A DNA stretch of 49,344 bases, from positions 1-49,344 of IMG/VR virus record IMGVR_UViG_3300028844_005914. One strand, written 5' to 3'. Both the position numbers and the translations under genes were made by a program. Each line of letters begins with the position of its first letter. Positions within the stretch are counted from its first letter, which is position 1. Shown piece by piece: positions 25,921-33,962 of this stretch. Under the pieces are notes generated by a model. The model worked only from the letters and a program-made list of their open reading frames with translations, was not told where the DNA came from and did no database searches. This stretch comes from a virus.

Positions 25921-26802
25921 ATGAGAAAAGATATAAGTAATGTCGCTATGTTAGTATCCTTGCGTATGGGTCGCATCGGATCATCGAAAGTAGATAAAGC
26001 CCAAAGTAATAATCTCACCGATCATCACCAAATGGAAAGGGGTAGTGCTAGAGTAAGTAAGGTCATCATTCAGAATGCTGATCTCAAAAAAATAAATCGC
26101 ATCTGTAATGAAGCTAAAGCTTTACGTGATAAGTTTACTCTACCATGGAATGATCAAGGTCAGCGTATGCTCCCTAGTTCATGCTTCCGAGAGTTTGATA
26201 CCGAGATGAATCGCTTAAAGAATGATTTTTTAGTCGCAGTCCAAGAACTAGCACAGGAATATCCAAGGATTAAATCTGATGCTCAAAGAAGATTGAATGG
26301 CATGTTCAATGAAGAAGATTACCCAGACAAGATTGAGAGCAAGTTTAATTTCGACCTAGAGGTAGCTCCTATGCCCAAGGGTAGTGATCTGCGTATCAAT
26401 GTTGTATCGGATGAAGAAAGAGAAAGATTACAGAAAGAGATCGAAGCTAGAACTATTGAGAGGGTCAGGAAATCCACCAATGATGTAGTTAGCAGAATGA
26501 TGTCATCTCTTATGACTCTTTTACAGGGTACGGATGGTGAGGGTGGATTATTAAATCCCGATGCTAGATTTCATAAAACTGCTGTCACCAAGCTACAAGA
26601 GATCATTGATATAGCACCTGAACTTAATGTCTTGGATGATCCCACTTTAAGTAAAGTAATTGAGGATGTTAAGGAACTCATTAAACCAGATAATTTAGAT
26701 GTAAATAAAATTAGGAATGATACATCTGAGCGTAATAAAGTCCTAAATAATTCCATGCAGGCAGTTGAATCCATTAAAAATGCCATGGGTGGAGTAGCGT
26801 AA
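25921..26802 (+). CDS. DUF3150-like protein of the AAA+/VWA module
   Basis: A 293-residue, mostly helical protein. The layout of an N-terminal segment with an MG-R-GSSK stretch, a helix (LKKINRICNEAKALRDKFTLPW), the conserved-looking FREFDTEMNRLKNDFLVAVQELAQEYP, then long charged helices and a C-terminal coiled coil, resembles DUF3150 proteins that accompany phage MoxR/CobS-like ATPases. Assignment rests on fold pattern and neighbours. It may be the substrate or adaptor on which the ATPase and the VWA protein act. Confidence 0.6.
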   Translation: MRKDISNVAMLVSLRMGRIGSSKVDKAQSNNLTDHHQMERGSARVSKVIIQNADLKKINRICNEAKALRDKFTLPWNDQGQRMLPSSCFREFDTEMNRLKNDFLVAVQELAQEYPRIKSDAQRRLNGMFNEEDYPDKIESKFNFDLEVAPMPKGSDLRINVVSDEERERLQKEIEARTIERVRKSTNDVVSRMMSSLMTLLQGTDGEGGLLNPDARFHKTAVTKLQEIIDIAPELNVLDDPTLSKVIEDVKELIKPDNLDVNKIRNDTSERNKVLNNSMQAVESIKNAMGGVA

Positions 26803-26822
26803 TAATAATAATAAGTAATAAT

Positions 26823-27854
26823 ATGAAATCATCACAAGTAATCCCATTCGTACGCAAGAGCGTAGATAATAATATGCCGATCCTAGTCGTAGGTGAACCA
26901 GGAGTTGGTAAGACACAAACCATTGAACAAGCACTAGAAGAATATGATGTGTATGTTCGTCATGCAATATGTATGGAGCCTATTGACTTTCGTGGTCTTC
27001 CATGCTTATTTCGCAATGAGGAGGATAAGAATAAATCATATGCTGAGTTTGTTCCGTATGGTGACCTTAATATTATGCTCAATGCGGATAAACCCACCGT
27101 GTTCTTTTATGATGATCTAGGTCAAGCTAGTCAGTCAGTTCAAAAAGCTATGATGCAGTTGTTCCTGCAACGAGAAGTTAATGGTAAGCGTATATCTGAT
27201 AATATAAGATTTATCGCCGCCACTAACCGAAGAGGTGATCGTGCGGGTGTCAATGGTCTAATCACTCCCCTCATATCTCGCCAAAAGTGTGTTATCAATT
27301 TTAGCGTAGATGTAGATGATTGGGTGAAGTGGGCTCATGATAATGATATGCCACCAATCCTTATTGCATTCATACACTTCCGTGGTCAAGAATTGTTGTT
27401 AGATTTTGACCCTAACAAAGTAGATGATAATGGTAATGATCTCGTACAGCAACCAAGTCCTCGTACTGTGGCAAGTATTGGTGATTGGATGAATCTAGGT
27501 TATTCGCCCAAGACTGATATGGAGATATTCGAGGGTGCTATCGGTCGTGCATTCACCCTAGAGTTCGCAGGTTTTATTGATCTGTTCGATGAGTTGGGTG
27601 ATTTACCTAATAGTATCGCAAATCGAGCCGAGGGTGAGTGTCCGTCATCCCCTGCTAGTATGTATGCACTTGCGTCATCCCTAGCACAGAGATGTGATGC
27701 GGATCATCGTGCCAATATTCATGAGTGGTGTGAAGCTAATTTCCCTGCTGAGTTTCAACAAGTATTGATATTGGATGCGGAAAGTATTCATAAAGATGAT
27801 TTCAAGAATAGTGATACTTATAATTTGTGGGTCACATATTTGAGGAAAGCTTAA
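26823..27854 (+). CDS. MoxR/CobS-like AAA+ ATPase
   Basis: A 343-residue AAA+ protein. Walker A is GEPGVGKT (24-31), Walker B VFFYDD (93-98), sensor 1 ATNRRGDRAGV (Asn135), and SPRT near 219 may be sensor 2. This is the MoxR branch, whose members work with a VWA-domain partner to remodel proteins or insert metals; CobS of cobaltochelatase is a relative. The partner gene follows with TAATG overlap. Its arginine codons are mostly CGN (about 13 of 17 by hand count), unlike the AGA/AGG bias of the head genes, which suggests separate origin. Confidence 0.85.
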   Translation: MKSSQVIPFVRKSVDNNMPILVVGEPGVGKTQTIEQALEEYDVYVRHAICMEPIDFRGLPCLFRNEEDKNKSYAEFVPYGDLNIMLNADKPTVFFYDDLGQASQSVQKAMMQLFLQREVNGKRISDNIRFIAATNRRGDRAGVNGLITPLISRQKCVINFSVDVDDWVKWAHDNDMPPILIAFIHFRGQELLLDFDPNKVDDNGNDLVQQPSPRTVASIGDWMNLGYSPKTDMEIFEGAIGRAFTLEFAGFIDLFDELGDLPNSIANRAEGECPSSPASMYALASSLAQRCDADHRANIHEWCEANFPAEFQQVLILDAESIHKDDFKNSDTYNLWVTYLRKA

Positions 27855-29137
27855 TGACTCCGCAAGAGAAAATTATTCGTCAAGACTTAAGGGAGTTGGT
27901 AGTAAATCAACCATTCTTTGCATCAATCATATTGAAGCAGAAATTGATTGTCACTCGATCTTGTTATACTGCTGCGGTTAATGGTGTTGAGCTTAAAGTA
28001 AATCCAAATTGGTTTTGTGAGTTAGACCCATATGAGAGAATGACCGTCCTAGCTCACGAAGCTCTCCATCTCACAAATAAGCACAATCTGCGTAGGGGCA
28101 GTCGAGATCATAAGATATGGAATGTCGCATGTGATATGGCTATCAATAAGCACCTGAAGTGTAGTCCGTTCAAATTGCCCAAAGAGGGTACTTATGATGT
28201 GGATAATAAATATGGGAATGGTGCTGATGCCGAGTATATCTATGCCTGTCTATTAAAAGAAATTGCAAATGAGTTGGATAAGCAAAATCAAGATGATGAC
28301 CAAGATGATGATCAAGACGATGATAATAACCAAGATCAGAATCAATCTCCAAGTGATGCCAATCAGGATGATGATAGTGATGCGAGAAGTAAGGCAATAG
28401 ATGCCGTATCTAAGAAGTATTCACCTAATGGTGGTATGGGTGAAGTCGAAGATCACCCAATGGTTATGGAATCACCTCAAGAAATGATGAATGCTCAGGA
28501 TATTGCAACTAATCAAGCTATGCAACAAGCCAAGAAGAGGGGTAAGATGCCTAATTCTATCGAGGAAGAAATAAATCGAAGCTATGAAAAGAAAGTTAGT
28601 TGGAGAGATATACTTAGTCGTTGGATTGAAGGCATATCCCAAGCTGATTATAATTGGTTATATCCTCATGATGTACATTTGCAGTATGATCTCATCATGC
28701 CTAGTATGCATAATGATGGATATGGTGAAATTATGATCGCCATCGACACATCTGCCTCCATGTGTGTAGATCAATTAAGATTAGCCGTCACGGAGGTCTA
28801 TAATGCACTAGAGTGTTATCAGCAGAATGAGCAAAGTGATATTAAATTAGGTGTTATGTATTTTGATTGCGAGGTACAGAAGACTGAGTATATATCATCA
28901 CCTAGTGAAATAAGTAAGCCCATAGGTAGAGGGGGTACGGATTATACACCCGTGTTTGAGTATGTGGGTAAGTCGCTCAATCCCCCTAGAGGTTTAATTA
29001 TCGTAACTGATGGTTATTGTCATGTGTATAAAGAGGATAAGCCAAATATGGATGTCATATGGATACTCACTGAGATGAGTGCCGAAAGATTTAGTCCTCC
29101 GTTTGGTGATTGCATCCAAGCTAGGTTAGATGATTAA
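27854..29137 (+). CDS. HExxH metallopeptidase-like plus VWA domain protein (MoxR partner)
   Basis: Started at the ATG in the TAATG overlap (427 residues). The N-terminal domain (DUF2201-like) holds HEALH at 68-72, a zinc-peptidase motif, followed by NVACDMAIN. An acidic Gln/Asp linker (about 146-176) leads to a C-terminal VWA-like domain with a metal-ion-dependent adhesion site: DTSAS (Asp298, Ser300, Ser302), GGTDYTP (Thr362 or Thr365) and VTDGY (Asp386). The acidic linker between halves recalls CobT. It probably forms a chaperone or protease complex with the AAA+ ATPase. All catalytic residues appear intact. Confidence 0.85.
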   Translation: MTPQEKIIRQDLRELVVNQPFFASIILKQKLIVTRSCYTAAVNGVELKVNPNWFCELDPYERMTVLAHEALHLTNKHNLRRGSRDHKIWNVACDMAINKHLKCSPFKLPKEGTYDVDNKYGNGADAEYIYACLLKEIANELDKQNQDDDQDDDQDDDNNQDQNQSPSDANQDDDSDARSKAIDAVSKKYSPNGGMGEVEDHPMVMESPQEMMNAQDIATNQAMQQAKKRGKMPNSIEEEINRSYEKKVSWRDILSRWIEGISQADYNWLYPHDVHLQYDLIMPSMHNDGYGEIMIAIDTSASMCVDQLRLAVTEVYNALECYQQNEQSDIKLGVMYFDCEVQKTEYISSPSEISKPIGRGGTDYTPVFEYVGKSLNPPRGLIIVTDGYCHVYKEDKPNMDVIWILTEMSAERFSPPFGDCIQARLDD

Positions 29138-29237
29138 GCTAATAATAAGTATTCTCCGTCATCATATGGCTAAGTTCATTGGTGGTGCTGTTGGTGGTGG
29201 AGTAATATACGATTTCGTGTCGGGATTATTCCGATAG
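29130..29237 (+). CDS. Small glycine-rich hydrophobic peptide at end of the VWA operon
   Basis: A 35-codon ORF overlapping the VWA stop by eight bases and ending just before the terminator. The product carries KFIGGAVGGGVIYDFVSGLF, a glycine-rich membrane-like helix; an internal ATG at 29166 would give 23 residues. Such peptides can be membrane-active. Coupling supports translation, but the assignment is tentative. Confidence 0.4.
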   Translation: MIKLIISILRHHMAKFIGGAVGGGVIYDFVSGLFR

Positions 29238-29255
29238 ATTACTAATGATGATTAT

Positions 29256-29286
29256 GGGGGGGGGCTTGTGCCCCTCCCCTTTTTTT
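29256..29286 (+). terminator. Strong intrinsic terminator
   Basis: Nine G and a C (29256-29265) pair with GCCCCTCCCC around a TTGT loop (ten pairs, one G-U), followed at once by seven T. It ends the DUF3150/AAA+/VWA operon. Confidence 0.92.
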
Positions 29287-30183: not shown

Positions 30184-30205
30184 TCTAAATCTAGTCTCTA
30201 AATTA

Positions 30206-30233
30206 GGATCGGGGTTTCCCGATCCTTTTTTTT
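30206..30233 (+). terminator. Intrinsic terminator, tandem copy 1
   Basis: GGATCGGG pairs perfectly with CCCGATCC around a GTTT loop, followed by eight T. It lies 23 bases after the regulator stop. Confidence 0.95.
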
Positions 30234-30243
30234 AGTCCAATTA

Positions 30244-30271
30244 GGATCGGGGTTTCCCGATCCTTTTTTTT
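30244..30271 (+). terminator. Intrinsic terminator, tandem copy 2
   Basis: An exact repeat of the upstream terminator: an eight-pair stem, GTTT loop and eight T. Two in series would insulate the terminase region from upstream transcription. Confidence 0.95.
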
Positions 30272-31565: not shown

Positions 31566-31947
31566 TTCCTTATATCATTTTGATGAATCTAAGGTAAATG
31601 CCTTGGGGGAGGGGCAATGCCATAATTTTCCATATGATGAAGTCGATGAAGAATTTGCAGATAACTATGAACCCGAAGAAGTGCAAAGAATGGGGGAAAT
31701 TTTGAGAGAAATATTAACATGGTTAACAATGGGTGATAAAAATTCAGAAGGATATGGTAAAACCGTTATGAGAAAAGCTATAGCAATGTGTTGGGTTATT
31801 AGACCCGAATTATTTAATGGTGAGCCATTATCAGAGATTGCAAAGAAAAAAGGAATAAATGTATTCAAGCAATCATTAAGCAAACAAGCTATTAATTTCT
31901 CTCAAAAATTTGGCATAAAAGGTAGAGGTCAACGCAAAAAACTATGA
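31552..31947 (+). CDS. Small HTH-containing protein in the terminase island
   Basis: Started at the ATG at 31552 (131 residues), overlapping the small terminase end; a GTG one codon earlier is possible. The C-terminal part (PLSEIAKKKGINVFKQSLSKQAINFSQKFG) looks like a sigma-region-4-like HTH with a basic tail. The acidic N-terminus may be disordered. It may assist terminase or control late genes. Confidence 0.55.
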   Translation: MGKNSSLYHFDESKVNALGEGQCHNFPYDEVDEEFADNYEPEEVQRMGEILREILTWLTMGDKNSEGYGKTVMRKAIAMCWVIRPELFNGEPLSEIAKKKGINVFKQSLSKQAINFSQKFGIKGRGQRKKL

Positions 31948-32552
31948 AAGTACAAATAAGAAAAATAATCGATTTAAAACCAGCGGAATATAATCCGAGA
32001 GAGCTAACTAAAAAACAATATGAGGACTTAAAGAAAAGCCTTCAAGAGTTCGGTGTAGTAGAGCCAATATTGGTAAATATGCACAAGGATAGAGAAAGTG
32101 TTGTTATAGGTGGTCATCAAAGATTGAGGATATGGAGCGAATTGGGTAATGAAGATATTCAATGCGTAGAGGTAAAGTTGCCATTAGATAAAGAAAAAGA
32201 ACTCAATGTAAGATTAAATAAAAATGGTGGGCAATGGGATTGGGATTTGTTAGCTAATAATTTTGAGAGTGCTGATTTAATAGATTGGGGGTTCAATGAA
32301 GATGATGTATTAGCTGAACTTACAGAGGATGATGAAAAGGAGGAGCCTGAAGTTGTTTTTTCAGAAATATTAAATGAATCCAATAATTATGTAGTTTTAT
32401 ATTTTGATAATGAGATTGATTGGTTGCAGGCTCAAACTCACTTTGATTTAGATTCGGTGCACTCCAAGAGATCAAATGGCAAACCTTGGAGTAAGGGAAT
32501 AGGTAGGGTTATTAAAGGGGCGGATTATTTAAAGGAATTAAATGAAAGTTGA
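31944..32552 (+). CDS. ParB/sulfiredoxin-like nuclease-domain protein
   Basis: A 202-residue protein coupled by ATGA. The N-terminal half has the ParB N-terminal fold: IRKIIDLKPAEYNPRELT, then FGVVEPILVN and the key loop VIGGHQRLRIWSELG. Phages commonly carry such proteins beside terminase genes, often fused or adjacent to DNA methyltransferases. The C-terminal half (NYVVLYFDNEIDWLQAQ, IGRVIKGADYL) is the companion domain seen in these proteins. It may nick or mark DNA for packaging or modification; the biochemical role is unproved. Confidence 0.8.
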   Translation: MKVQIRKIIDLKPAEYNPRELTKKQYEDLKKSLQEFGVVEPILVNMHKDRESVVIGGHQRLRIWSELGNEDIQCVEVKLPLDKEKELNVRLNKNGGQWDWDLLANNFESADLIDWGFNEDDVLAELTEDDEKEEPEVVFSEILNESNNYVVLYFDNEIDWLQAQTHFDLDSVHSKRSNGKPWSKGIGRVIKGADYLKELNES

Positions 32553-33213
32553 AACTAAATATATTGGCTTAAAGAAATTTACTTATAGAGACAATAAGTC
32601 TGATTTATGGGTTATAAATGAAGTTGCCCATCCTTCTACATATCAGAAGTGGTTACAGGTCGGTTCGGATGATGTAGTTTTAGATATAGGAATGAACATA
32701 GGTGCTTTTAGTGTCTTCTATGGGAGTAAGGCTAAGGTGTGTATAGGCTTTGAACCAGAGGAAGAAAATTTTAATTTAGCTGTAGAAAATATAAATCAAA
32801 ATAAAAGGGAGGGATCAGTAATCCCATTAAGAAAAGCTGTATTGGGAAGAAGAGATTCACAAATTGAGTTATATATAAATAATGGGTCAAGGCGCGATGG
32901 GGACACCATTATACCCAAAAGGGGGAGGAAAAGAGTTATAGTTGATGCCGTAAATATTAATGATTTAATAGAGCAGTATAAGCCTAATAAAATAAAAATG
33001 GATTGTGAAGCTTCCGAATATGATATTATTAAGCATATTCAGAATTGGAGTAGCATTGAATCTATTGTTGTGGAGTGGCATAGAACAATGCTGAAGGATG
33101 AATCCAATCAAATGCTTGGTGAAGTTTTTGATATATTGGATAATAATTTTTCTGAAGTGTCAGGTAATAGAGACCCTGCGGGATGGATGCAAATAATGAA
33201 AGCTCGAAAATGA
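32542..33213 (+). CDS. FkbM-family methyltransferase
   Basis: A 223-residue protein. SAM-binding motif I is VVLDIGMNIGAF (45-56), the acidic residue ending strand 2 is in GFEPEEENF (Glu71), and KMDCEASEYDII (153-163) is the FkbM family signature. FkbM enzymes O-methylate sugars and polyketides, so the substrate is more likely a glycan or glycosylated base than plain DNA. It lies between a ParB-like protein and a glycosyltransferase-like gene, overlapping each slightly. Confidence 0.82.
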   Translation: MKVETKYIGLKKFTYRDNKSDLWVINEVAHPSTYQKWLQVGSDDVVLDIGMNIGAFSVFYGSKAKVCIGFEPEEENFNLAVENINQNKREGSVIPLRKAVLGRRDSQIELYINNGSRRDGDTIIPKRGRKRVIVDAVNINDLIEQYKPNKIKMDCEASEYDIIKHIQNWSSIESIVVEWHRTMLKDESNQMLGEVFDILDNNFSEVSGNRDPAGWMQIMKARK

Positions 33214-33962
33214 AATATACAATATATTCTCCTACCTATAAAAGATCAGGTTTATGTAGAACACACAAGTACCTGAAGGATGTTGTTTATGTTGTGCGTG
33301 AATCTGAAAAAGATGATTACGCGGGCGTTCATGATAAGGTATGGATTGTGCCTGATTCTGCTCAAGGAAACCTCTCAAGGGTAAGAAATTACATATTAGA
33401 TCAAGCAAAGGAAGATCATATTATTTTGTTAGATGATGATATTCATTGCTTTGGCAGATGGAATGGTGGTGATCATAAAAAATTAGATGAAGATGGTGCT
33501 TATAATATGATGTATGAAGGCTGTCAGTTGGCAGAGGATTTAGATGTCAGGTTTTGGGGTCTTAATTGCATAGGTGATAAAGGGTCTTATCGGGAATATA
33601 CTCCGTTTGGCACAAGGCAGTATATAGGCGGACCTTTTCAAGCACATCATAAAAATGACTTAAGGTATGATGAGAAAATATATTTAAAGGAAGATTATGA
33701 TATGACCTTACAGGTCTTAAATAAGTATAGAAGAAACCTTAGATTAAATATGTATCATTATGATTGCGATCAGGCAACGCTTGCGGGGGGCTGTGCAGAA
33801 TATAGAAACATTAAGACGGAAATGAATCACAATGATATGCTAAGAAAAAAATGGGGAAGCAGTATCGTGCAGTTTGATACAGGTAATTCACAAGTGCAAA
33901 GAAAGAGACAACAGAGCTATGACATTAACCCTATAATAAAAATACCAATAGGAGGTGTGTAA
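33210..33962 (+). CDS. GT-A glycosyltransferase-like protein (TAGT-like)
   Basis: Started at the ATG overlapping the methyltransferase stop (ATGA), 250 residues. It opens YTIYSPTYKRSG, has GNLSRVRNYILDQA, then HIILLDDDIHCFGRW, where DDD is the metal-binding motif. PTYKR, then RN, then LDDDI resembles the TET-associated glycosyltransferases predicted to glycosylate modified bases in phage DNA. I see no TET/JBP dioxygenase here, so the acceptor is unknown; the base-modifying role is inferred. Confidence 0.65.
   Translation: MKYTIYSPTYKRSGLCRTHKYLKDVVYVVRESEKDDYAGVHDKVWIVPDSAQGNLSRVRNYILDQAKEDHIILLDDDIHCFGRWNGGDHKKLDEDGAYNMMYEGCQLAEDLDVRFWGLNCIGDKGSYREYTPFGTRQYIGGPFQAHHKNDLRYDEKIYLKEDYDMTLQVLNKYRRNLRLNMYHYDCDQATLAGGCAEYRNIKTEMNHNDMLRKKWGSSIVQFDTGNSQVQRKRQQSYDINPIIKIPIGGV

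Follow-up and report, generated by a model that had tools for sequence, protein, structure and literature searches.

The window analysed here is the whole 49,344-base IMG/VR virus record IMGVR_UViG_3300028844_005914. It carries a siphovirus gene set comprising a tape measure protein, an Erf annealing protein, SSB, an exonuclease, an O-like initiator, a DnaC loader, RusA, the small and large terminase subunits, a portal, a protease and a major head protein. Three adjacent open reading frames occupy positions 25921–29137 on the plus strand between RusA and the small terminase, with the Erf, SSB, O-like, DnaC and RusA genes upstream. D (25921–26802, 293 aa) encodes a DUF3150-like protein, the third component of the trio; M (26823–27854, 343 aa) encodes a MoxR-type AAA+ ATPase; and V (27854–29137, 427 aa) encodes a DUF2201 protein with an N-terminal HExxH metallopeptidase domain and a C-terminal VWA domain containing a MIDAS. 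V, the VWA partner encoded beside M, overlaps it by the sequence TAATG, and the ATG at 27854 within this overlap is taken as its start; a GTG at 27827 is less likely. All three families had been predicted at this position by a sequence-only reading of the DNA and all three are confirmed.

A plus-strand open reading frame for a hydrophobic 35-residue protein (29130–29237; ATGATTAA) overlaps the V stop codon. It is conserved in a relative contig (91% amino-acid identity, dN/dS 0.16), and whether it belongs to the trio unit is uncertain. The trio is closed by an intrinsic-terminator-like hairpin followed by seven T (29256–29286, plus strand), which was located by scanning and is kept in the relative L006. 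The window has this region in common with a close relative contig, IMGVR_UViG_3300018428_000407. Against this contig dN/dS is 0.057 for D, 0.049 for M and 0.107 for V, which indicates purifying selection on all three; M is the best conserved of the proteins compared. Further downstream, two identical terminator-like hairpins (AGGATCGGGGTTTCCCGATCCT, then seven T) lie at 30205–30226 and 30243–30264 with a spacing of 38 bp and the small terminase downstream of them. A row of ParB/methyltransferase-like, methyltransferase-like and phrog_842 (beta-glucosyl-HMC-alpha-glucosyltransferase) proteins at 31944–33962 is possibly a DNA-modification module.

M matches the Pfam AAA and AAA_5 families of AAA+ proteins and the phage family phrog_1297, annotated as 'ATPase' (E-value 1e-49). 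The GxPGxGK motif, Asp97, the sensor-1 residue Asn135, Arg153 and Arg214 are conserved across 11 sequences, so that Walker A, Walker B, sensor 1, the arginine finger and sensor 2 are all represented, which bears out the proposal of a MoxR-like ATPase with Walker and sensor motifs. Walker A reads GEPGVGKT; Walker B has the form hhhhDD rather than ending in the usual DE, as it also does in several plasmid homologues.

V is matched by PF13203 (E-value 1e-35, 123.8 bits, cut-off 23.2 bits) and PF09967 (E-value 1e-14, 54.7 bits, cut-off 26.4 bits). Counted from the GTG start, His77, Glu78, His81, Asp103 and the MIDAS residues Asp307, Ser309, Ser311, Thr371 and Asp395 are invariant over 45 sequences, in agreement with the HEALH metallopeptidase motif and the full VWA metal site described from the sequence. 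The HExxH motif is kept in 196 of 200 V proteins. The V proteins of a Variovorax plasmid and a Paraburkholderia dioscoreae plasmid (L010 and L015) have lost HExxH and kept the VWA MIDAS, suggesting that peptidase activity may be dispensable there. The best PDB matches of the AlphaFold model (pLDDT 85) include the midasin MIDAS and the NorD VWA domain, both of which are partners of AAA+ machines. The label 'HNH endonuclease' that phrog_1314 gives to this DUF2201 metallopeptidase-VWA family, and which has spread to many phage records, was rejected on domain and motif evidence.

The assignment of D is weak when the protein is taken alone and becomes firmer through its relatives. D scores 18.9 bits (E-value 0.001) against PF11348 (DUF3150), below the 24.9-bit curated cut-off, and is for this reason named only DUF3150-like; a search of the window DNA with this single family gave an E-value of 5e-5 (17.3 bits). 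Eight of 41 aligned D relatives match PF11348 individually at an E-value of 1e-3 or better (best 4e-8), and none of the 41 matched any other Pfam family. Homologues of D also carry the DUF3150 annotation in phage MinM2 and in some plasmids. The AlphaFold model of D (pLDDT 91.8, pTM 0.85) places five strands amid long helices, so that the earlier description as a helical DUF3150-like protein holds for the family likeness, by way of the relatives, and only in part for the fold. A search of solved structures in the PDB returned no match below an E-value of 0.04 (best 0.046, TM-score 0.25), and nine matches at an E-value of 0.001 or better among viral predicted structures are all to proteins of no known function. 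No paper dealing with DUF3150 by name was found in a literature search.

A lack of co-occurrence in other genomes was the refuting condition set for the earlier reading, and the outcome strongly favours a real three-gene unit. Searches with tblastn place M in 360 phage records and V in 581; homologues of D occur in only three (MinM2, Pag-Yong1 and Pra-JY27), which share one identical D protein. Among uncultivated viruses, one scan anchored on D gave 471 confirmed stretches. Of the best 80 of these, many of them from related phages, 77 contain D, M and V together, the three incomplete loci are all cut by contig ends, and the trio is complete in each of the 29 loci flanked by 5 kb or more on either side. 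The order is M-D-V in 75 of these 80 loci; the D-M-V order of the window is uncommon (10 of 79 loci). Scans anchored on M or V found all three genes at 69 viral and 24 genome loci and only the M-V pair at many others, indicating that D implies M-V and not the reverse. Chromosome searches with D yielded four full-length strong matches, each with M and V alongside. Of two less complete loci, one (L255) encodes a truncated D with V, and the other (L256) has a 63-bit D match with no M or V inside its short extent. Weak D matches of 18–28 bits in Acidobacteriota genomes resemble chance matches between helices and were left out of the counts. The trees of D, M and V co-vary, with pairwise distance correlations of 0.46–0.54 against permutation maxima of 0.13–0.22. 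This near-constant joint travel suggests that the three proteins probably form one machine. Those recurrent neighbours of the trio or pair to which a name could be given comprise DNA polymerase, terminase, an HslV-like peptidase and a nucleotide-kinase-like protein. A different, membrane-like protein of about 115 residues adjoins the pair at many M-V loci that lack D, mostly just after V.

The position between M and V can be taken by either of two unrelated families. In many M-V loci without D it holds a phrog_1965-like protein with the N-terminus MA[ST]VRMS, here termed the S family. The slot contains D in 156 loci, S in 37 and both in none, the mutual exclusion that adaptors or clients would show if they were exchangeable; in 55 loci with D between M and V, S follows V. 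Profile comparison with hhalign (probabilities of about 1% or less) rules against D being a distant relative of S. At many viral loci (L137, L100 and others) an S protein adjoins V, either in the slot of D or after V, and two paralogues often surround one V. No S homologue is present in the window.

The same genes occur on plasmids, mostly Burkholderiales megaplasmids, with 42 plasmid records matched by D and 53 by V; except for a single D record, the genus tallies of the two sets agree. In four of the plasmid regions examined (Rhodovastum, Variovorax, Burkholderia and Paraburkholderia) M, D and V are adjacent in that order on the same strand, and in the Burkholderia and Paraburkholderia plasmids the trio is flanked by a PRTRC cassette and a conjugation operon. 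In Simplicispira M lies about 3.6 kb upstream of D, and Synechocystis pSYSA carries the M-V pair without D. No virion genes were found in the plasmid trio regions inspected. On a Manganitrophus plasmid (L014), a DUF3150 protein stands beside DUF1257, DUF2997, AAA ATPase and JAB-domain proteins with no matching M or V, possibly a different association.

The arginine codons of the ATPase had been read as a sign that it was acquired separately. They are indeed mostly CGN (14 CGN to 4 AGR, against 152 to 500 over the genes counted; p = 1e-6), but the claimed contrast with the head genes holds only in part, as the major capsid gene is CGN-rich too (8 to 3). In codon usage all three genes are outliers, D and V too ranking among the strongest (z of 5.8, 9.5 and 6.5 for D, M and V, or 5.3, 6.0 and 6.7 when arginine is left out), and their deviations share direction (r = 0.56–0.65). 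This shared deviation and the co-varying trees speak against acquisition of M alone and imply that any acquisition was joint; the pattern fits either joint acquisition or shared expression.

The M-V pair is already well known in phages. In phage N4 its counterparts gp24 and gp25 have been identified as AAA ATPase and vWFA protein, with no function assigned (PMC2784036), and they rank among the core genes of N4-like phages (PMC7650795). Schitoviridae relatives of the AAA+ ATPase and the DUF2201/VWA protein were recovered by tblastn; in contrast to the trio, no DUF3150-like homologue was found in any record of that family. No report on the essentiality of gp24 or gp25 was found in the literature. 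A MoxR ATPase adjoining a vWA protein with an N-terminal metallopeptidase domain, the same arrangement as M-V, is also described for group 2.2 jumbo phages, and the passages of that article concerned with the pair propose a role in virion assembly and name no third component (Iyer et al., 2021; PMC7824862). Where a DUF3150-like protein occurs in the present data, plasmids included, it is almost always linked to the pair, and the context points to the replication phase instead.

Two further groups of systems resemble the trio. NorQ-NorD, RavA-ViaA and CbbQ-CbbO likewise combine a MoxR ring with a VWA partner, and V is structurally nearest to the NorD VWA and midasin MIDAS; however, no peptidase domain or DUF3150 partner was found described for these systems, whose clients are host enzymes. 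The MoxR-vWA ternary conflict systems (VMAP, iSTAND and FtsH types) share with the trio a MoxR protein, a vWA protein and a dedicated third protein in one operon, but they are enriched in multicellular bacteria (PMC7159879). The third component of the trio appears instead to be DUF3150-like, D matching only DUF3150 in Pfam and no PDB fold; V is of the DUF2201 type and no effector domains are seen. The literature searched contained no paper on DUF2201 together with MoxR, no description of a third partner of the phage M-V pair and no biochemical or genetic work on any trio member.

Strand context bears on when the genes may act. Wherever the respective gene was seen, DNA polymerase lies on the strand of the trio or pair in 73 of 74 loci and terminase on the opposite strand in 72 of 75, which is a statement about context and not about expression timing, and many of these loci are related to one another; in the window itself terminase and trio share a strand. 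The N4 pair gp24/gp25 is middle-transcribed (PMC4193335), and the strand context agrees with this.

Taken together, the most probable reading (about 0.6) is that M, V and D make up one protein-remodelling machine that acts within the cell, early in phage infection or during replication, and not on the virion. This retains the core of the earlier proposal of a MoxR-VWA machine, which is supported here with its metallopeptidase motif intact. In NorQ-NorD, a MoxR hexamer works with a VWA adaptor; the MIDAS of this adaptor, dispensable for ring binding, is believed to engage an acidic patch on the client (PMC9976466). By analogy with MoxR-VWA biochemistry, M would form an ATP-driven ring on which V docks through its VWA domain, and the MIDAS metal site of V would grip an acidic residue of the client, which the zinc metallopeptidase domain might then clip. 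D could be a dedicated third subunit that sets specificity, as a client adaptor or scaffold, a role suggested by its near-obligate linkage and by the exchangeable slot; alternatively, D may itself be the client. Large plasmids would use the machine in the manner of infecting phages. Both the strand and the plasmid context point to an intracellular client at the replication phase, and a client common to phages and plasmids might be a complex for replication, recombination or host regulation. A narrower version, in which the MoxR protein, the exchangeable third subunit (DUF3150-like or phrog_1965-like) and the metallopeptidase-VWA protein constitute a widespread, adaptor-programmed intracellular protease of phages and plasmids that serves the replication phase and not virions, is put forward tentatively.

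A role in counter-defence or host takeover, in which a host defence or regulatory complex is disassembled or cleaved with D as the recognition subunit, appears rather unlikely. It would accord with the exchangeable third slot, with host defence being faced by both phages and conjugative plasmids, and with the accessory and sporadic occurrence of D in chromosomes, where strong matches appear in 2–3 of 247, 2 of 399 and 1 of 296 genomes. PADLOC profiles, from a library that covers defence rather than anti-defence systems, gave no match for D or V and only weak AAA-type matches for M, and the pair is core in N4-like phages across many hosts, suggesting that its client is not tied to particular defence systems.

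Virion assembly, offered earlier alongside a host defence complex as one of two possible targets of the window's machine, is disfavoured by strand context and plasmid copies and is judged improbable. Such a chaperone-protease would fold and process structural proteins, as the portions of Iyer et al. (2021; PMC7824862) treating the jumbo pair propose and as is reported for the MoxR-vWA pair of Acidianus two-tailed virus. Virion proteins do lie near the gp24/gp25 homologues in roseophage RPP1 (PMC4193335), and terminase is the next recognisable module downstream of the trio in the window. Against this, the three-gene operon also resides on plasmids in regions free of virion genes where inspected, nearly all phages showing both place terminase opposite the strand shared by polymerase and the trio or pair, and the N4 pair belongs to the middle-transcribed genes. 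A chaperone of the NorQD or CbbQO kind, inserting a cofactor or metal into a metalloenzyme of phage or host and with HExxH purely structural, is very improbable, since the motif is so widely kept and no recurrent metalloenzyme gene adjoins the trio among the neighbours that could be named, despite the resemblance of V to the NorD VWA and the loss of HExxH in some plasmid copies.

The M-V pair is a core element of N4-like phages without an assigned function. A tightly linked third gene that is swapped for an unrelated family in the same slot makes the composition of the unit definable and offers a route to its client, and the plasmid copies together with the strand context make the published virion-assembly proposal directly testable. 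If the reading as an adaptor-guided protease of phages and plasmids is true, a class of takeover or replication-control machinery would at present be filed under 'HNH endonuclease' and 'hypothetical protein'.
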